Below are positions 1,852 through 9,641 of a stretch of DNA of 64,000 bases, one piece after another. Below the pieces are notes generated by a model, which saw only the letters and a list, made by a program, of their open reading frames with translations, did not search any database and was not told the DNA's origin. The position numbers were made by a program, and so were the translations under genes. The DNA is from Shinella zoogloeoides (GTDB lineage Bacteria > Pseudomonadota > Alphaproteobacteria > Rhizobiales > Rhizobiaceae). Location: positions 806,001 through 870,000 of the forward strand of contig NZ_CP131131.1 of NCBI RefSeq assembly GCF_033705735.1, in the 5' to 3' direction. Each line of letters opens with the position of its first letter. The stretch's first letter is position 1.

Positions 1852-2964
1852 TTACTTGACGAGGACCGGATTTCCCTGGTCGTCGAAATCGTAGAAGACG
1901 AACTGGAAGTCCTTGATGTCGCCCTTCTCGTCCCAGGTGATCTTGCCGATGGCGGAATCGACCGTGTTGCTGCGCAGCCAGTCCGTCTGGGCCTTGATGT
2001 CCGCGCCGGCCTTGAGCGCGCCGACGACGGCCTGCGCATTCGCATAGCCGTAGAGCGTGTAGTTGGCCGGGGCGACGCCCGCTGCCTTCAGCGCATCCTG
2101 AACGCCCTTGGTGGACGGGTCGGCGAGCGGATCGGGCGTTGCCGAATAATAGACGTCCTTCAGGTTGGCTGGGCCGCCGGCAGCCGCGATCAGTTCCTTC
2201 TGCGCGAAGGAGTCGCCGCTGATGAAGACGACGTCGAGGCCCTGTTCGCGGATCTGGCGGATCAGCGGGCCGCCTTCGGGAATGAGGCCGCCGAAATAGA
2301 CGGCGTTCGCGCCCGTGCTCTTGATCTTGGTGACGAGCGCGTTGAAGTCGCGTTCGCCGCGCGTCAGCCCCTCGTAGAGAACCGGCTCGATGCCGCGCGC
2401 CTGAATGGTCTTCTTGACGGCGTCCACGAGGCCCTGGCCATAGGTGTCCTTGTCATGGATCAGGGCGATCTTGTCGCGCTTCAGCGTGTCGAGGATGAAG
2501 CCGCCGGCGACGACCGCCTGCTGGTCGTCACGGCCGCAGCCGCGGAACACGGTTTCGAGGCCGCGCTCGGTCACCGTGGGATTGGTGGAGGCCGGCGCCA
2601 TTTCGAGGATGCCGGCGTCGTTGTAGATCTCGGAGGCGGGGATCGTGCTCGAGGAGCAGAAGTGGCCGATCACGGCCTGCACCTTGTCCTGGTCGACGAA
2701 GCGGTTGGCGACGGCAACGGCCTGCTTCGGCTCGCAGGCGTCGTCGCCCTTGACCAGCTCGATCTGCTTGCCGTCGATGCCGCCGGCGGCGTTCACTTCG
2801 TTCACATAGGCGGAGACGCCCGCAAAGACCTGCTCGCCGAACGTGGCGTTCGCGCCGGTATAGGGACCGGCGACGCCGATCTTGACCGTGTCGGCGAAGG
2901 CCGGGGCGAGAAACAGGGTGGAGGCGATGGCAGTCGCCGCCAGGATTTTCGAAATCTGGATCAT
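1852..2964 (-). CDS. livK: Branched-chain amino acid ABC transporter substrate-binding protein
   Basis: Periplasmic LIV-type binding protein, 370 residues with the start at 2964, which follows an AGAGGGAAG ribosome-binding site. A Sec signal peptide (MIQISKILAATAIASTLF, cleavage near AFA-DT) precedes the mature fold. The mature start VKIGVAGPYTGANATFG and the motif ELVKGDDACEPKQAVAVAN are family hallmarks, including the disulfide-region cysteine in DDAC. It is the first gene of the operon livK-livH-livM. The exact ligand (leucine, LIV, or an amide) cannot be told from the sequence. Confidence 0.95.
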   Translation of the reverse strand: MIQISKILAATAIASTLFLAPAFADTVKIGVAGPYTGANATFGEQVFAGVSAYVNEVNAAGGIDGKQIELVKGDDACEPKQAVAVANRFVDQDKVQAVIGHFCSSSTIPASEIYNDAGILEMAPASTNPTVTERGLETVFRGCGRDDQQAVVAGGFILDTLKRDKIALIHDKDTYGQGLVDAVKKTIQARGIEPVLYEGLTRGERDFNALVTKIKSTGANAVYFGGLIPEGGPLIRQIREQGLDVVFISGDSFAQKELIAAAGGPANLKDVYYSATPDPLADPSTKGVQDALKAAGVAPANYTLYGYANAQAVVGALKAGADIKAQTDWLRSNTVDSAIGKITWDEKGDIKDFQFVFYDFDDQGNPVLVK

Positions 2965-3176
2965 GGGCTTCCCTCTGGTTAAGCCGTTAAACTCTTCAGT
3001 GGGATACGGTTCGCTCCGCATCTGTTGTTGTCACAGGGGCGAGCGCAGGCGTTTTCTTCTGCGCTCGTCCTTGCAGTTTTTTGGCCACTGAAAAGAGTAT
3101 AGGGGCTGCCCACGCGCCGGAGTGCGTAAGAAATTCCGTCGATCGACAAGCTATCCTTGATGCGTCGATGGCGTCT
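2965..3176 (-). promoter_or_regulatory. livK: Upstream region of the liv operon
   Basis: A 212-base gap between the surE stop codon and livK, with both genes on the minus strand. It must carry the livK promoter because no open frame is convincing here. It is relatively AT-rich around 3055-3110, with a TTTTTTGG run near 3075. I did not find a clear operator motif. Confidence 0.35.
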
Positions 3177-3938
3177 TCATGAGCCGAAGAGCGATACGAG
3201 GCTGTGGTTGGTCTCGTAGTCCGTCATGTCGATGCGCAGAGCCGAGACGGAGGGCGCCTTCAGCGCCAGCGCCTCGGCATCGCTGCCGACCTCGTATTCC
3301 GCCATGTCATGCACGGAATGGATCCAGTAATAGGGGAACTTCCGGCCATCCAGCCGCTGTTCGACCTGGTAGCCGTGGGCGCGCTTGCCCTGCGAGACGA
3401 CGCGTACCGCCTGGAGCTCCTCGTCGCGGCAGTTCGGGAAATTGATGTTGTAGAAGACGCCTTCCTTGCGCGGCAGGGAGAGCAGCTTGCGGATGATGGC
3501 CGGGGCGTTCTTGCGGCTGATGTCCCAGTTGAAGACGCGCTCGCCATCGACGAAGTCGTAATGCTGCGAGAGCGCGATCGAAGGCACGCCGAACAGCGTG
3601 CCTTCGATCGTGCCGCCGATCGTGCCGGAATAGATGATGTCGTCGGCGATGTTGGCGCCGGAATTGACGCCGGAGAGAATGAGATCGGGCGGTTCGGGCA
3701 GAAGGTCGCGCACGCCGACGATCACGCAGTCGGCGGGCGTTCCGGTAACGGAATAGCGTTTGTCACCGTATTTGCGCACGCGTAGCGGCTCAAGCTGGGT
3801 CAGCGAATGGGCAAGGCCGCTGCGGTCCGTTTCCGGCGCCACGGACCAGATGTCGTCGGACAGCGTGTGGGCGATCTCCTCGAGCACACGGAAGCCGTCG
3901 GCGTGGATGCTGTCGTCGTTGGTAAGCAGAATTCTCAT
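3177..3938 (-). CDS. surE: 5'/3'-nucleotidase SurE
   Basis: Metal-dependent phosphatase that removes phosphate from nucleoside 5'- or 3'-monophosphates and, in some homologues, short polyphosphate. At 253 residues it is the same length as the E. coli enzyme. The N-terminal MRILLTNDDSI carries the paired metal-binding aspartates, and SGVNSGANIADDIIYSGT is the family signature with the metal-binding asparagine. It is the last gene of a minus-strand operon, 44 bases behind an ABC permease, rather than beside pcm or serS where housekeeping surE usually lies. It is therefore likely a paralogue serving whatever the importer brings in. Its substrate is inferred only. Confidence 0.92.
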   Translation of the reverse strand: MRILLTNDDSIHADGFRVLEEIAHTLSDDIWSVAPETDRSGLAHSLTQLEPLRVRKYGDKRYSVTGTPADCVIVGVRDLLPEPPDLILSGVNSGANIADDIIYSGTIGGTIEGTLFGVPSIALSQHYDFVDGERVFNWDISRKNAPAIIRKLLSLPRKEGVFYNINFPNCRDEELQAVRVVSQGKRAHGYQVEQRLDGRKFPYYWIHSVHDMAEYEVGSDAEALALKAPSVSALRIDMTDYETNHSLVSLFGS

Positions 3939-3982
3939 GTCATGTCTCGCAAATGAGGTTTTGGATGTTGAAGGGGCGGGCG

Positions 3983-5659
3983 TCAGCGGGCTTTCGGCCG
4001 GCCGACGAGGGCGAGGATGGCGTGCATGACGAGCGTCGCGGCGAGCACCGTCGCCATGATGCAGACGGAGAAGGCCGCCGCCTGCGTGCTCTTGCCGCCT
4101 TGGTCGAGCCGCATGACCGTCACCGCCGCGACCGTCATGGACGGCGTGACGAGGAAGATGACGGCCGAGAGCGTGACCATCGCCCGCATGAACAGGAAGA
4201 AGAACACCGAGACGAGCGTCGGCGTCATCACCGGCATGACGGCATCGCGCAGTGCATGGAGATTGCTGCCGCCCATGCAGGTGACGGTTTCCTCGAGGCT
4301 CTTCGGTACGGCGCGGATGCCCGTCACCATCGTGAGGAAGCCCTGGGAGTGGTAGTGGTAGAAATTGCAGATCGCGATGAGGAAGGCCGAGCCGTAGAGC
4401 GCGCCGAGCATCGAGCCCGATACGTTGAAGGACAGGACATAGGACAGGCCCAATACCAGTCCGGGTACGCCGACCGGTACGATCGCCAGGAAGTAGACCA
4501 CGCGCGCCGCGACCGGCCCCAGCCGGCGCTGGGCGAGCGCCAGCAGGAAGAGCGAAAGTGTCCCGATGGCTGCGGTCTCAAGGGAGATGAGCAGCGTCGA
4601 CCAGAGAGAATCGTAGCCGCCCGCCATGGAGATGTCGTAGTTCGCCAGCGTGAAGTCGAGCCGATAGGGCCAGAGCTTCACGAAGCTGGCGTAGACGACG
4701 GTGGCGACCACCGCAAAGACCACGAGGCCGATCGCATGGACGACGAGGCCGAGCGGCAGGTCGCGCAACGGCACGTAGTCCTGTGCAACAGGCACCGCGC
4801 TTTCCGACGAGCCGCCGAACTGGCGTTGATTGGCGACCCGCTGGATGTAGATGGCAAGCAGCGTCGGCAGCAGCAGCATGATGCCGACGACGGCGCCCAT
4901 GTTGAAGTTCATCTGGCCGACGACCTGGGTGTAGATCTCCATGGCCAGCACCTGGAACGAGCCGCCGATGACGGCGGCATTGCCGAAGTCCGTGACGGAG
5001 ACCGTGAAGACGACGAAGGCGGCGCTGATCAGGCCGAACTTGGCCGAAGGGAAGGTGATGTCGACGAAGCGCCGCCAGCGTGACGCGCCAAGCAGGAGGG
5101 CAGCGTCGTAGGGACGGGCGTCGGACCGGCGCAGCGAGGTCTCGAGGATCATCACCGCCTGCGGCAGGGCATACATGCAGTTGGCGATCAGCAGACCCCA
5201 GAAGCCGTAGATCTGAATGTCGAGATGCAGATACTTGTTGATGAGCCCGTTGCGGCCGAAGAGGAAGATCAGGCCGAGCGCCTGCACCAGCGAGGGAGCG
5301 AGCAGCGGCAGGATCAGGATGATGCGGATCAGCCGCTTGCCGGGGATCTTCGTACGCTGGAGCATGAAGGCGATGGCGAAGCCGAGCACCACGCAGACGA
5401 GCGTGGTGACGCCGCCGATCAGCAGGCTGTTGCCGATCACGCGGGGGATATGGGCGAGCTGGAAGACGCCGGCATAATTGCCGAACCCGAGCGAGCCGTC
5501 GCCTTCTGTGAGGCTGCGCCCGACGATCTGCGACAGCGGATAGAGAAAGAAGAGGGCGAGTGCGGCGAGCGGCACCACCAGGCAAGCAAGGAAGAACAGC
5601 CGGTCCGGATTGGCGTGCCGTCTGGATCGTGCCCTGGGCAGGAAGGGGAGAGCCGTCAT
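3983..5659 (-). CDS. ABC transporter permease, fused double-domain (phosphonate/iron-type)
   Basis: Inner-membrane permease of 558 residues with two fused BPD_transp_1-like halves, about 12 membrane segments in all. Each half has an EAA-type loop (around DAALLLGASRWRRF and LEETVTCMGGSNLHALRD). This fused layout is seen in the AfuB/FbpB iron permeases and in the putative 2-aminoethylphosphonate permease family; length and neighbours favour the second. Its start overlaps the end of the ATPase gene by 4 bases, so translation is coupled. It sits in the operon IMPase-SBP-ATPase-permease-surE. Confidence 0.88.
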   Translation of the reverse strand: MTALPFLPRARSRRHANPDRLFFLACLVVPLAALALFFLYPLSQIVGRSLTEGDGSLGFGNYAGVFQLAHIPRVIGNSLLIGGVTTLVCVVLGFAIAFMLQRTKIPGKRLIRIILILPLLAPSLVQALGLIFLFGRNGLINKYLHLDIQIYGFWGLLIANCMYALPQAVMILETSLRRSDARPYDAALLLGASRWRRFVDITFPSAKFGLISAAFVVFTVSVTDFGNAAVIGGSFQVLAMEIYTQVVGQMNFNMGAVVGIMLLLPTLLAIYIQRVANQRQFGGSSESAVPVAQDYVPLRDLPLGLVVHAIGLVVFAVVATVVYASFVKLWPYRLDFTLANYDISMAGGYDSLWSTLLISLETAAIGTLSLFLLALAQRRLGPVAARVVYFLAIVPVGVPGLVLGLSYVLSFNVSGSMLGALYGSAFLIAICNFYHYHSQGFLTMVTGIRAVPKSLEETVTCMGGSNLHALRDAVMPVMTPTLVSVFFFLFMRAMVTLSAVIFLVTPSMTVAAVTVMRLDQGGKSTQAAAFSVCIMATVLAATLVMHAILALVGRPKAR

Positions 5660-6663
5660 GGTGCCACCCAGTGGCCGCGGCCGTCGTGAAGGGAAAGGGA
5701 GACCCGTTCGCCCGGCACGAACCGCTGGCCGAGGCGCAGATCGCTGGTGATCGCCCGGCCCCGCCAGTCGAGCCGCACGTGGCTGACATTCCCGAGGAAG
5801 GCCACATCCTCGACGATGGCCTCACCCGCGGGGTCGGCGGTCAGCACAAGCTCCTCGGGGCGCACCACGAGGAGCGAACCGCCGATGACACCGTCCTGTT
5901 GCACGGCGGAGAGCCTTTCACCGAACAGCGTGCCGGCTTCCTCGGTATCGAAGAAATTGCTGGTGCCGATGAAGCTCGCCACGAATTTCGTGCGCGGGCG
6001 GAAATAGAGATCGTGCGGCGTGCCGACCTGCTCGATGCGGCCGTGGTTCATGCACACCACCTTGTCGGCCATGCTGAGCGCTTCTTCCTGATCGTGCGTG
6101 ACCATGATCGTCGGAATTTTCAACCGCCGCTGCAGATCGCGGATTTCGCCGCGGATATCGAGACGCACGCGGGCGTCGAGCGCCGATAGCGGCTCGTCCA
6201 GCAGCAGAAGCGATGGCGCGACAGCCAGCGCTCGGGCGATCGCGACGCGCTGCTGCTGGCCGCCGGAAAGTTCGTGCGGATAGCGGCCGATCAGGTCGGG
6301 GAAGCGGATAAGGTCGAGCAGGGCGCGTACCTGTTTTTCTATCTCGGCCTTCGGTACGCCGCGGATCTTCAGGCCATAGCCGATGTTCTCGCCGACCGTC
6401 ATGTTGGGGAACAGCGAATAGGACTGGAAGACGATCCCGAAATTGCGGTTGCGCACGTCGATCGTGTTGAGGTCGCGGCCATCGAAGCGGATCTCTCCGT
6501 CGGCATAGCTTTCAAGCCCCGCGACGATGCGCAGGAGGGTCGTCTTGCCGCAACCGCTCGGGCCGAGCAGACAGACGAACTCGTCGCTGCCCGCATGCAC
6601 ATTGATGTCGTCGAGCGCAAGAAAGGAACCATATTTCTTGTGCAGGTGGCTGATATCCAGCAT
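5656..6663 (-). CDS. ABC transporter ATP-binding protein (PotA/PhnT-like)
   Basis: Cytoplasmic ATPase of 335 residues for the importer in this operon. Walker A is GPSGCGKTT, the Q-loop is in FQSYSLFPN, the signature is LSGGQQQR, Walker B is LLLLDEPLSALD and the switch histidine is in TMVTHDQEEAL. A C-terminal TOBE-like domain follows (about residue 240 on), as in the CUT1/PotA/FbpC class. The start at 6663 (MLDISHLHKKYG) follows GGAGATA; an in-frame upstream start adds 14 residues without family support. It overlaps the permease gene by 4 bases. Confidence 0.93.
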   Translation of the reverse strand: MLDISHLHKKYGSFLALDDINVHAGSDEFVCLLGPSGCGKTTLLRIVAGLESYADGEIRFDGRDLNTIDVRNRNFGIVFQSYSLFPNMTVGENIGYGLKIRGVPKAEIEKQVRALLDLIRFPDLIGRYPHELSGGQQQRVAIARALAVAPSLLLLDEPLSALDARVRLDIRGEIRDLQRRLKIPTIMVTHDQEEALSMADKVVCMNHGRIEQVGTPHDLYFRPRTKFVASFIGTSNFFDTEEAGTLFGERLSAVQQDGVIGGSLLVVRPEELVLTADPAGEAIVEDVAFLGNVSHVRLDWRGRAITSDLRLGQRFVPGERVSLSLHDGRGHWVAP

Positions 6664-6687
6664 GAGGTATCTCCACGGAAGGGAGGC

Positions 6688-6703
6688 GCCCGCCTGAGCG
6701 GGC
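6688..6703 (-). other. Intercistronic hairpin after the binding-protein gene
   Basis: GCCCGC (6688-6693), loop CTGA, GCGGGC (6698-6703) form a compact 6-bp GC stem directly after the substrate-binding-protein stop codon and before the ATPase ribosome-binding site. No T-run follows. The position matches the stems after the other two binding-protein genes in this window. Confidence 0.45.
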
Positions 6704-6718
6704 ACCGGGCGAGGACGA

Positions 6719-7738
6719 CTAACGACCGGTTGTTTCCGACCAGCGAGCCAGAATCTGCTCGCGATCGCGCGCCATCGCGGCGAAATCCATCTTCGAGAGC
6801 CTGCTGGAAATGTCTGCGGGGAAACCGGCTTCTTTCGCCGCTTCCGACTGTGCCGTGCCGGGAATGGTGGTGACGGGCTTCAGGGAGGCGTAGATGCCGA
6901 GCGGGCTCGGCGTCAGCATCCAGTCGAGGAACTTCTTGCCGTCGTCGGGGTTCTTCGCGCCCTTGAGGAGACCGATGCCGGAAATCTCGAAGCCGACCCA
7001 ATCGCCCGGAAGCACGGTTTCGACGGGATAACCTTCATTGACCGCCTGGATCGCCGGCACTTCATAGCTGACGCCGATGGCGAATTCGCCGGCCTGCGCC
7101 ATGCGGCAGGGGCGCGAACCGGAACTGGTGAACTGTGCGATGTTCTTCGTCAGGCGGCCAATCAGATCCCAACCCTTTTCTTCGCCGAGACCGTAGATGA
7201 GCGCCGTGATGTTGACGAAACCGACGCCTGAGGAGACCGGGTCCGGCATCACCACCTCGCCCTTGTACTTCGGGTCGGCAAGTTCTTCCCAGGATTTGGG
7301 AACGGGCAGGCCGAGGGTCGCCAGCCGATCGGTATTGGCGCAGAATACCTCGACATAGCCTGCCAGCGAGAACCAGCGGTTTTCCGGATCACGGAACTGG
7401 GCCGGCACCTTGTCGACACCCTTGACCGCATAGGGTTCGAACATGGCCTCGATGGTCGGGTTCATGATGTTGGTGACGGGCAGACTGAGCACGACGTCGG
7501 CCTGAGGATTGCCCGCTTCGGCAATGAGACGGGCTGTCAGATTACCCGTCGACAGGCGCAGCACGTTGATCTTGACATCCGGGAGCTCCTCCTTCGCTTT
7601 CTCGACGAAAAGGTTGATCTCCTCTTCCTCGAGTGCCGAGTAGACCGTGATCTCGCCCGCCATGGCTTGCTGGAGGAAGGCCGCGCCTGCGAAGAGCGCG
7701 GTAGCGGCGATTTTCTTTGTACGCTTCCAGTATGTCAT
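6719..7738 (-). CDS. ABC transporter substrate-binding protein, 2-aminoethylphosphonate-like family
   Basis: Periplasmic family-1 solute-binding protein, 339 residues, start at 7738 behind AAGGGGA. The signal peptide ends near QQAMA-GE. The mature protein opens ITVYSALEEEE and contains STGNLTARLIAEAGNPQADVV, VMPDPVSSGVGF and FTSSGSRPCRMAQAGE (each shown as a family hallmark). From memory, these match the PhnS2-type binding proteins annotated for 2-aminoethylphosphonate more closely than FbpA-type ferric proteins; the paired tyrosines of ferric binding proteins are not obvious. No phosphonate catabolic gene lies nearby, so the ligand may be another phosphorylated compound. Confidence 0.85.
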   Translation of the reverse strand: MTYWKRTKKIAATALFAGAAFLQQAMAGEITVYSALEEEEINLFVEKAKEELPDVKINVLRLSTGNLTARLIAEAGNPQADVVLSLPVTNIMNPTIEAMFEPYAVKGVDKVPAQFRDPENRWFSLAGYVEVFCANTDRLATLGLPVPKSWEELADPKYKGEVVMPDPVSSGVGFVNITALIYGLGEEKGWDLIGRLTKNIAQFTSSGSRPCRMAQAGEFAIGVSYEVPAIQAVNEGYPVETVLPGDWVGFEISGIGLLKGAKNPDDGKKFLDWMLTPSPLGIYASLKPVTTIPGTAQSEAAKEAGFPADISSRLSKMDFAAMARDREQILARWSETTGR

Positions 7739-7794
7739 GTCATTCCCCTTCTTGTGATGGATCATGTGTTCTCGGCGCGTCGGGAGGGTTGCGT

Positions 7795-8604
7795 TCACGC
7801 CGCGCATTCCGCCGCACGGCATTCGGCGATGATGGCGAGCGCTTCGCGGTGGCGGTCCGGATCGCCGGCGCCGAGCAGGTTTCCGGAGCTTTCCAATGTC
7901 AGCGGCAGGCCCCGCCAGTCCGTGACTATGCCGCCGGCGCCTTCGACAATGGGGCGGAAGGGAGCGAAATCGTGGACCTTCTGGCCACCGTCGAGCGCGA
8001 GGTCGGTGCGCCCTTCGGCAAGGATCCCGTAGTTGAGGCAGGATCCGCCGTAGACGCGGGCGCCGGTCGCCTCGCGCAGGGCGTCAAGCACCGGCCGTCC
8101 GCCCGGTGGCAGGTAATCCTGATTGCTGTTCGTCAGGATGGCCGAGGAGAGGGCGCTGCAGGAGCGTACCTTCACCGGTCGTCCATTCTTCACCGTCTGG
8201 CGACCAACCGCTCCGATCCATCGCGCGCCGATGGCGGGAATGTCGATGACGCCAAGGGACGGCACCCCATCGATGGCCAGGGCAATGAGCGTCCCGTAGA
8301 CCGGCATGCCGGCGATAAGCTGGGCGGTGCCGTCCACCGGGTCGAGCACCCAGATGTGGCTTGCGCCCCCATTCTCGGTCCCATCCTCCTCGCCGATGAT
8401 GCCGTGAGCCGGAAAGCGATCGGCGATGAGGGTGCGCATCCGCCGTTCGATCTCAAGATCGATCTGGGTCACGAGGCTGCGGTCGGGCTTTACCTCTACC
8501 GCCAGCGTGGAATCGATTGCCTTGACGAGGATGCCATGGGCGACATCCGCCAGTTCCACGGCCAGTTCCAGATGGCCGTCCAAAACATGCTTATCCCGTC
8601 CCAT
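7795..8604 (-). CDS. Inositol monophosphatase family phosphatase (HisN-like)
   Basis: Mg2+-dependent, lithium-sensitive-type phosphomonoesterase of 269 residues. Visible motifs are GEEDG (metal ligands, about residue 71), WVLDPVDGT (metal and phosphate binding, about residue 86) and HDFAPFRPIVEGAGG (C-terminal metal aspartate, about residue 215; the usual W-D-x-A-P has become H-D-F-A-P). The family covers inositol-1-phosphatase, histidinol-phosphatase, fructose-1,6-bisphosphatase-like and nucleotide 3'-phosphatases; the last motif leans towards HisN-like enzymes. It is the first gene of the operon, with GGAG before the start at 8604, directly ahead of the importer, implying that it works on the imported compound or a derivative. 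Confidence 0.9.
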   Translation of the reverse strand: MGRDKHVLDGHLELAVELADVAHGILVKAIDSTLAVEVKPDRSLVTQIDLEIERRMRTLIADRFPAHGIIGEEDGTENGGASHIWVLDPVDGTAQLIAGMPVYGTLIALAIDGVPSLGVIDIPAIGARWIGAVGRQTVKNGRPVKVRSCSALSSAILTNSNQDYLPPGGRPVLDALREATGARVYGGSCLNYGILAEGRTDLALDGGQKVHDFAPFRPIVEGAGGIVTDWRGLPLTLESSGNLLGAGDPDRHREALAIIAECRAAECAA

Positions 8605-8855
8605 TTAATCTCCACGGACCGGCAAGGGGCGTGAGCGGCAGCGCACGCCTCCAGGAAGGTTGAAATGTCTTCGGAGAGCTCTGTTCGTCGTGCAGCCGGT
8701 TCCGCAGCGGATCGGCCGTTGGAGTGAAGTCGTATCGCGATTTCGCGGATGTGGCAATATGTGGGCGTGTGCGAAATTGTGGTTTTATGGATTTTTTTGG
8801 ACTTGAGGCAAAATGTGGGTTTCTATATTGGTGCTGAGAAGCGGAGTTTCTGAGC
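8605..8855. promoter_or_regulatory. Divergent promoter region with TGTGG repeats (putative DeoR operator)
   Basis: The 251-base region between the phosphatase/importer operon and the deoR-type gene turns AT-rich from 8740 on. It holds four same-orientation TGTGG cores at 8750, 8760, 8778 and 8814. Three are extended: CAATATGTGGGCGT (8755-8768), GAAATTGTGGTTTT (8773-8786) and CAAAATGTGGGTTT (8809-8822). DeoR-family repressors commonly bind direct repeats in such divergent regions, so this is the likely operator for both directions. Confidence 0.5.
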
Positions 8856-9641
8856 ATGTGGCAGGAAGAACGGCAGCAGAAAATTCGGACACTTCTGGCC
8901 GCCTATGGTCAGGTTTCCGCTGATCGCGTCGCCGAGGAATGCGGTGTGTCGCGTGAGACCATCCGGCGTGATTTCGTGGAGATGGAGGCGGCGGGCGAGT
9001 TGAAGCGGCTGCGTGGCGGCGCCGTGCCGGTTACGCCTGAAGATCCTGCTTTCGACGTGCGCATCACGCAGCGGCTCAAGGAAAAAAGAGCGATCTGCGT
9101 GCGCGCGCTCTCCCTCCTGCACGACGGGCAGACGATCTTCATGGATGGCGGTTCGACGCTCTCCATCATGGCCGAGGAGATTGCCGGGCGATCGGGGCTG
9201 AGAGACCTGACGATCATCACCAACTCGCTCGAGATCGCCATGACGCTCGCCGAAAAGCCGGATGAGCCGTCCCGGGGGTTCAGGGTCGTCCTTTTGGGCG
9301 GGGACGTGAAACACAATCCGATCGAGACATACGGGCCTGCGACCATCAACGAGATACAGCGCTTCCGTGCAGACGTCTCGATCATATCGCCCTGGGGAAT
9401 TGATTTGCGGGGCGGGGCCATGGACCACTATGCGCACAGCGCCGAGGTGGCCCGGGCCATGACGGACAACGCCGCCACCCGGATCATCCTGGCTGATCAC
9501 TCCAAGGTGGGTGTTGCCGCAAGGGTGGCCTTTTGCGCGATCGAAGACATCGACTATCTGGTGGTCGATCCGAAGGCGCGGACAATTCCGGCCTTCGGTG
9601 CGTTTGCCGGTGCGGTGCCCGGCCTGATCGTCGCTGAGTGA
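8856..9641 (+). CDS. DeoR/GlpR family transcriptional regulator
   Basis: Cytoplasmic repressor of 261 residues. The N-terminal winged HTH (about residues 5-60: ERQQKIRTLLAAYGQVSADRVAEE then VSRETIRRDF, given as its two halves) is typical DeoR. The C-terminal DeoRC sugar-phosphate-sensing domain follows, with DGGSTL and the ILADHSKVG motif near residue 210. This family senses phosphorylated sugars or related phosphate esters, which fits the two phosphatases in the divergent operon. GCGGAG precedes the ATG. It ends 30 bases before the convergent gntR-type gene. Confidence 0.92.
   Translation: MWQEERQQKIRTLLAAYGQVSADRVAEECGVSRETIRRDFVEMEAAGELKRLRGGAVPVTPEDPAFDVRITQRLKEKRAICVRALSLLHDGQTIFMDGGSTLSIMAEEIAGRSGLRDLTIITNSLEIAMTLAEKPDEPSRGFRVVLLGGDVKHNPIETYGPATINEIQRFRADVSIISPWGIDLRGGAMDHYAHSAEVARAMTDNAATRIILADHSKVGVAARVAFCAIEDIDYLVVDPKARTIPAFGAFAGAVPGLIVAE

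Follow-up and report, generated by a model that had tools for sequence, protein, structure and literature searches.

An ABC importer operon with two phosphatases in Shinella zoogloeoides: a probable phosphomonoester uptake system set apart from 2-aminoethylphosphonate transporters

What does an ABC importer carry when its genes stand between those of two unrelated phosphatases? The question is raised by an operon in a 64,000-nucleotide stretch of the Shinella zoogloeoides genome (assembly GCF_033705735.1, contig NZ_CP131131.1, positions 806,001 to 870,000; hereafter the window), in which genes for an inositol-monophosphatase-family phosphatase (IMPase), a substrate-binding protein (SBP), an ABC ATPase, a fused permease, and a SurE nucleotidase lie in that order on the minus strand, with a gene for a DeoR-family regulator diverging from them. 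Transporters of this type commonly bear the label 2-aminoethylphosphonate (2AEP) or iron. Comparison of the operon with its relatives indicates that it very likely serves the uptake and dephosphorylation of a phosphomonoester, and that 'phosphonate' or 'iron' is probably the wrong label for the window transporter. The six genes are as follows.

7795 to 8604, minus strand: IMPase-family phosphatase of the HisN-like subfamily, operon gene 1 (PF00459, 154.5 bits; TIGR02067 HisN, 233.5 bits, under the histidinol-phosphatase cut-off of 275.15; GEE, DPVDGT, and HDF motifs in the translation)
6719 to 7738, minus strand: periplasmic SBP with a signal peptide-like N-terminus, member of the sub3 subfamily (PF13343/PF01547; PhnS2, 306.8 bits, under the cut-off of 392.75)
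5656 to 6663, minus strand: ABC ATPase (PF00005 and TOBE_2; PhnT2, 398.4 bits, under the cut-off of 457.7)
3983 to 5659, minus strand: fused double-domain ABC permease (PF00528 in two stretches; PhnU2, 485.5 bits, under the cut-off of 593.25)
3177 to 3938, minus strand: SurE 5'/3'-nucleotidase paralogue, last operon gene (PF01975; over two equivalog cut-offs, NF001490 with 309 against 233 and TIGR00087 with 201.4 against 135.1)
8856 to 9641, plus strand: divergent DeoR-family regulator (PF08220 and PF00455)

A first-pass annotation of the window had described these genes, their order and coupling, and the divergent regulator correctly, as judged by coordinates and spacings: 56 nt separate the IMPase and SBP genes, 55 nt the SBP and ATPase genes, and 44 nt the permease and SurE genes, and the ATPase and permease genes overlap by 4 nt. 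The most likely start of the SBP is the ATG at 7738; the mechanical open reading frame extends to 7822. The three IMPase motifs are taken to have the roles familiar for that family.

The same annotation had placed the transporter in a 2AEP-like family while doubting that the label applied. PhnS2, PhnT2, and PhnU2 were indeed the best-matching models, but all three proteins scored under the curated cut-offs. Elsewhere in the genome, two AepX-type SBPs did exceed the PhnS2 cut-off, one adjoining phnX and the other phnY, and the window SBP was 37–39% identical to them. The family placement holds only as a best match, and the doubt about the label proved justified. No phn gene was present in the operon or its immediate neighbours, C-P lyase and phnW/phnA not having been searched for genome-wide. 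A clade profile (A2) made from eight SBPs, the window SBP among them, scored clade members at 475–600 bits and AepX-like proteins at no more than 362, with nothing between among the matches listed at E ≤ 1e-95; the window SBP scored 545 bits in this profile, which includes the window SBP itself. The clade that holds the window SBP is discrete and lies outside AepX. Among class-level genomes, 8 of 385 had members, and among phylum-level genomes 4 of 398, the window's genome being counted in both; 394 genomes of one further family gave 9 clade loci, none of them from the window's own SBP subfamily. A DNA scan of genome contigs gave only 6 loci. Conservation of the five-gene order across related genomes, as it had been worded, did not hold: the best SBP outside the window's genome among 151 Rhizobiaceae genomes was 46% identical, and of 21 Shinella genomes only two, which belong to a single species, had the window system.

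The neighbours of clade loci were mapped by tblastn against a reference set, together with record annotation. In subgroup 1 of the clade, an IMPase gene was adjacent in 14 of 19 loci and a gene for a phospho-lyase-like (class III aminotransferase-like) protein in 4, together 18 of 19. The 16 subgroup 2 loci had a HAD-family gene in 8 and an IMPase gene in 2. Among these, L053 encodes BetA (875.3 bits, cut-off 732.1) and BetB (709.1 bits, cut-off 668.6), and at L130, coded as having no enzyme, a gene about 2 kb off encodes an aldehyde dehydrogenase that is 36% like BetB. Of 19 AepX-like control loci, one (L059) had an IMPase gene and 14 had genes of the PhnX, PhnY or PbfA type, most of them so labelled by similarity to the PhnX and PhnY of the window's genome. 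Phosphonate genes were found at none of the 34 clade loci counted, a set that excludes L182 (cut at a contig end) and L024 (on a 3.3-kb contig). When loci were collapsed at 90% SBP identity, which dropped seven, a phosphate-ester enzyme stood beside 21 of 27 relatives against 1 of 19 AepX controls (Fisher p = 8e-7), and beside 13 of 13 in subgroup 1 alone (p = 4e-8; 13 of 14 with L182 counted as a miss, p = 3e-7), and phosphonate genes beside 0 of 27 against 14 of 19 (p = 5e-8). These p values overstate independence, because the loci are related by descent. The contrast supports the earlier proposal of phosphate-ester import followed by intracellular dephosphorylation. An IMPase gene was also nearby in all five loci with more distant SBPs (L047, L050, L062, L063, and L065), which stand outside the statistical test.

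The enzymes encoded beside subgroup 1 importers suggest a ligand for that subgroup. The phospho-lyase-like proteins of L131, L015, and L152 had as their best solved structure 6tor, an ethanolamine-phosphate phospho-lyase (344–361 bits), and that of L157 has the same accession as that of L152; against the PbfA model, with its cut-off of 525, L131 and L015 scored 201 and 199, compared with 668 and 653 for the AepX controls L057 and L133. At two near-identical Azospirillum loci (L153 and L158), an IMPase-eutB-eutC set is divergent from SBP-ATPase-permease-DeoR. At L012, L125, and L126, genes for an IMPase, a glutamine synthetase (GS)-like ligase, an aldehyde dehydrogenase (ALDH), and an iron-type alcohol dehydrogenase (Fe-ADH) stand in a row, a composition that matches the ethanolamine gamma-glutamylation set described in PMC10132767 (this and the other papers are cited here from the parts available to us); the gamma-glutamyl assignment is our own reading, since none of these enzymes is identified by a curated model. 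At L015, the operon includes a gene for a phosphocholine-specific phospholipase C (947.5 bits, cut-off 580.25). One importer type is thus accompanied by three different ethanolamine or ethanolamine-phosphate modules: an IMPase plus EutBC, an IMPase plus the gamma-glutamyl set, or a phospho-lyase by itself. The substrate that would most simply suit all three is O-phosphoethanolamine, which is the ester counterpart of 2AEP, and subgroup 1 is likely to import it. As a separate matter, the SBP gene of L015, a metagenome-assembled genome, seems split across two frames (L015:8001-8928), through a sequencing error or a real break, and L152 and L157 are Klebsiella plasmid records typed as conjugative that carry the importer, the phospho-lyase-like gene, and DeoR, so mobile DNA can carry the system.

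The window SBP departs from this pattern in its binding pocket. Its subfamily comprises 12 protein clusters with 63–100% identity, the next proteins being at most 57% identical among the best 120 of 591, and forms one clade (support 100). In the tree, which was built by a quick method, this clade branches from within subgroup 1 (support 99) and its stem is 1.0 change per site long. When the subfamily was compared with 28 subgroup 1, 15 subgroup 2, and 8 AepX proteins, ten positions were fixed differently in 12 of 12 members. W84L, G85S, and E253S occurred in all twelve at positions otherwise fixed in subgroup 1, subgroup 2, and AepX, as did A87P at a position near-invariant elsewhere (one subgroup 1 protein has G); position 227 is V or G in the subfamily and F or Y in subgroup 1, and E226 was gained. 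The subgroup 1 pocket set of W84, A87, F/Y227, and E253 is not kept, being L, P, V, and S in the window SBP. The phosphate-contact positions, taken from the available parts of PMC4546632 and PMC8427247, were retained in 12 of 12 members (T64, G65, S170, G171, S206, and G207), and E251 stays; in the phosphate-loop comparison, the equivalent of T172 / T150 is V in 8 of 12. Every amino-phosphate- or amino-phosphonate-type SBP in the comparison has E or D at residue 253, where AfuA and P5PA have G, and E253 may bind the amine. By sequence and fold, the solved structures nearest to the window SBP are AfuA, 8x1a, and P5PA, which bind glucose 6-phosphate or fructose 6-phosphate and pyridoxal 5'-phosphate (PLP).

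The enzyme and regulator genes point to a second source. A second module, with the order DeoR, then divergently IMPase-ATPase-permease-SBP, is present in the window's own genome (L047, about 61 kb from the window operon) and in Roseateles, Shinella HZN7, and Paracoccus denitrificans; a P. pantotrophus variant has a GntR gene in place of DeoR. The L047 proteins are 62% (DeoR) and 64% (IMPase) identical to those of the window. In trees, the window IMPase grouped with the second module (16 rows, support 99; 21 rows, support 97), as did the window DeoR (7 rows, support 99), and the subgroup 1 IMPases formed a separate group (14 rows, support 98) with the window IMPase outside it. The operon has neither an IMPase of the subgroup 1 IMPase clade nor a phospho-lyase; its IMPase sides with the second module. 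Two features of the gap between the divergent genes bear on the same relationship.

8605 to 8855, no strand: DeoR/IMPase intergenic region with four plus-strand copies of WTGTGG (8749, 8759, 8777, and 8813), from a motif scan; both strands of the entire window hold 32
8749 to 8763, plus strand: candidate DeoR operator ATGTGGCAATATGTG, a 15-mer with two exact matches in the 5.79-Mb genome

The other copy of ATGTGGCAATATGTG lies between the DeoR and IMPase genes of L047, 61 kb away, and the exact 15-mer at both gaps suggests shared regulation. The window branch is, on these comparisons of sequence, a re-specialised mosaic with a changed pocket and the apparent DeoR and IMPase of another module. 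The second-module SBPs are 43–48% identical to SBPs that, by record annotation, stand beside genes for a PLP-dependent aminotransferase and a PEP-mutase-family protein or phosphonopyruvate hydrolase, which is the composition of phosphonoalanine use in the portion of PMC10574752 consulted. The L047 cluster just past the window (G000:C2:868001-888000) holds, besides its DeoR-IMPase module, a phnY-AepX locus and an AfuA-like importer with its own IMPase and RpiR regulator. Another locus of this genome, L050 (G000:C2:1045001-1062000), encodes two tandem SBPs with an AfuA-like HD..E motif, then a permease, an ATPase, and an IMPase, together with a large phosphatase-like protein read as a metallophosphoesterase, with no NCBIfam match at E 1e-20; L050 is a candidate for a second ester importer with two phosphatases. 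IMPase-family matches in the genome number 11.

SurE has a narrower distribution. The closest relatives of the window SurE were 61–87% identical and the bulk at most 58% among the best 120 of 1607, and a second SurE in the genome was 56% identical to it. Contigs of equal size outside the species, where co-location was judged by matching size alone, hint at SBP, IMPase, and SurE together (78,179 bases), SBP with SurE (5,575 bases), and IMPase with SurE (100,865 bases). SurE was not found at the other clade and control loci examined for neighbours. Of the co-conservation of surE and the IMPase gene with the transporter that had been proposed, the part about the IMPase, which is coupled far more broadly, held up, and these data suggest that SurE is co-conserved only within the narrow SBP subfamily. 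SurE would then be an accessory phosphatase.

From these comparisons we infer the direction of transport, cytoplasmic dephosphorylation, the regulation, the ligand, and the assignment of ligands to modules. A small phosphomonoester would enter intact through the AfuA/AepX-type ABC importer; cytoplasmic phosphatases, the HisN-like IMPase first and SurE as accessory, would free phosphate and the organic moiety; and DeoR would sense the imported ester or its product and control the divergent promoters. The window branch would have arisen inside subgroup 1, changed its pocket, and come to carry the DeoR and IMPase of the second module. Taken as a whole, this explanation, with the ligand probably another amino phosphate, is one that we moderately favour, and we hold an amino-bearing small phosphomonoester as ligand with similar reserve. 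For its identity, O-phosphoserine is a tentative lead, weaker for the window than for the second module, because it is the ester analogue of phosphonoalanine and the second-module SBP is kin to phosphonoalanine-type importers; it is a possible rather than a likely answer, ahead of phosphoethanolamine, which is unlikely. The broader scheme, that the clade under 2AEP and iron labels consists of importers of intact head-group monoesters with an interchangeable enzyme, and that the window branch was rebuilt for a different amino phosphate with SurE added, is put forward only a little less tentatively than the O-phosphoserine proposal.

A number of observations weigh against this reading. At L182, in subgroup 1, the visible 9 kb upstream holds neither an IMPase nor a phospho-lyase gene, and no phosphate-ester enzyme was found at 6 of 16 subgroup 2 loci. 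Among AepX-like loci, L016, not counted with the controls, encodes a HAD protein 38% alike (2 of 20 controls with L016 included); L133 has GS/ALDH/Fe-ADH-like genes about 2 kb away, so that ethanolamine-type genes occur in 1 of 19 controls; and L059 has both IMPase and DeoR. At L059 (G135:C1:2330001-2350000), where no phosphonate gene was found, these two proteins fall in the subgroup 1 IMPase and DeoR clades; the same enzyme may have been coupled independently to a different SBP. The substitutions at 84, 85, 87, and 253 mean that the ligand of subgroup 1 need not be that of the window, since the window SBP lost residues fixed elsewhere. In the window's genome, eutB was not found and the best match to the GS-like enzyme was only 36%. 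The last genes of the second module in P. pantotrophus belong to the proline-racemase and Ldh families, a pairing not suggestive of phosphoserine. Convergence of the pocket on phosphonoalanine-type SBPs was considered and found weak, with only S85 and E226 in common and E253S not.

The closest rival to a re-specialised importer is that the operon takes up O-phosphoethanolamine as subgroup 1 would, the pocket changes being mere tuning. The nesting of the SBP in subgroup 1, the identity of the permease (52–64%) and DeoR (38–50%) to subgroup 1 proteins, and the retention of E251 and the phosphate contacts speak for it, but the ten positions fixed differently in 12 of 12 members, including W84, E253, and the near-invariant A87, the place of the IMPase outside the subgroup 1 IMPase clade, and the lack of a detected eutB in the genome make it unlikely. 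Phosphoethanolamine was downgraded as the window ligand because of the pocket comparison and the IMPase and DeoR trees. Import of 2AEP, feeding PhnX or PhnY pathways encoded elsewhere, would account for the best NCBIfam models and for phnX and phnY in the genome. We set it aside as very improbable, with all three proteins under the curated cut-offs, no phn genes in the operon, the true AepX-type SBPs adjoining phnX and phnY elsewhere, the gap in the clade profile, and phosphonate genes at 0 of 34 clade loci (0 of 27 collapsed) against 14 of 19 AepX loci.

Sugar or polyol phosphates, imported in the manner of AfuA, are a slightly better prospect, if still quite improbable: AfuA and 8x1a are the nearest solved structures, and residue 253, an S in the subfamily, is G in both AfuA and P5PA. 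Sugar phosphates are frequent effectors of DeoR proteins. Of the AfuA residues, however, only E229 is kept, V and P standing in place of H205 and D206 in the window, and the clade lies nearer to AepX than to AfuA-like SBPs. A nucleotide-like ligand with SurE as the main enzyme, in part an idea of the first-pass annotation, is improbable to nearly the same degree. The window SurE is over its model cut-off, under strong purifying selection, distinct from the other SurE of the genome, and co-conserved with the SBP subfamily on a few contigs, and a pocket without W84 and F227 could be more open; against this, none of the neighbours examined was identified as a nucleotide or nucleoside gene, the enzymes that accompany relatives are of the IMPase, phospho-lyase-like or HAD kinds, and the nearest characterised SBPs bind much smaller esters. 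Nucleotides were set aside for want of a supporting neighbour, the relatives pointing instead to amino-alcohol or amino-acid phosphates. Ferric iron, the label that some sources give these SBPs, is the least credible ligand: sequence and fold matches to iron binders are weaker than those to phosphate-ester binders, and the neighbours are phosphatases.

All six genes of the window system are present in L011 (S. zoogloeoides PQ7) with 98–100% protein identity, and dN was below dS for each (dN/dS pairs: SurE 0.002/0.092, SBP 0.005/0.059, DeoR 0/0.047, and IMPase, the weakest, 0.012/0.024). The six genes evolve under constraint between these genomes. A gap of 212 nt separates SurE from the next gene, which encodes a LivK-type, branched-chain-amino-acid-type SBP (Peripla_BP_6; 1852-2964, minus strand) and follows SurE in L011 too. 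A 16-pair hairpin at 3034-3073 lies in this gap with a T run on the plus strand; terminator-like sites are just as numerous as expected from shuffling, and promoter and terminator scans of the locus gave chance-level results.

If the proposal is true, many SBPs called 2AEP- or iron-binding are importers of biological phosphate esters, and direct phosphoethanolamine uptake would yield phosphorus, nitrogen, and carbon from dead membranes without an extracellular phosphatase. The clade would also supply the intact head-group uptake that the 2023 study (PMC10132767), in the part available, left open. The interest of the system lies in the head-group importer clade that it reveals and in an apparent change of ligand. 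In the window branch, the idea that an ABC importer can switch ligand while its regulator and enzyme are exchanged is open to test.

The agrocinopine acc operon likewise joins a DeoR-type repressor, an ABC importer, and an IMPase-like phosphatase in one system, but its SBP cluster is unrelated and its ligand is a phosphodiester. In the open-access literature, as far as it was searched, no report of an intact phosphoethanolamine ABC importer was found. In Phaeobacter, the accessible text of PMC10132767 describes phospholipid head-group catabolism with the ethanolamine gamma-glutamylase set and BetAB, the same classes as the neighbours of the clade, but there PhoX removes phosphate outside the cell, and the Discussion leaves intact head-group import open. 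The phosphonoalanine pathway PalA/PalB (PMC10574752, in part) is linked through the aminotransferase- and PEP-mutase-associated SBPs related to the second module, but it proceeds by C-P rather than ester hydrolysis. AepXVW, the 2AEP importer (Murphy et al. 2021, PMC8316502, in part), shares the superfamily of the SBP, the ATPase, and the fused permease; the window system differs in scoring under the cut-offs, in having no phn genes in the operon, in its separate clade, and in the loss of acidic E253 and W84. P5PAB, the pyridoxal-5'-phosphate importer (PMC8427247, in part), also has an SBP for a phosphate ester, alike in fold and in its conserved phosphate loops; it differs in its ring-contact H203, which is V in the window, and in its partner genes. 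The best structural match is to AfuABC, the hexose/heptose-6-phosphate importer (PMC4546632, in part), and VcA0625 (8x1a), class II SBPs with intact phosphomonoester import and the same phosphate loops; AfuA residues H205, D206, and E229 correspond to V227, P228, and E251 in the window, with one of three kept, and IMPase and SurE are the partners here. Among importers of intact phosphomonoesters, the window system is a variant of the type represented by AfuABC and P5PAB.

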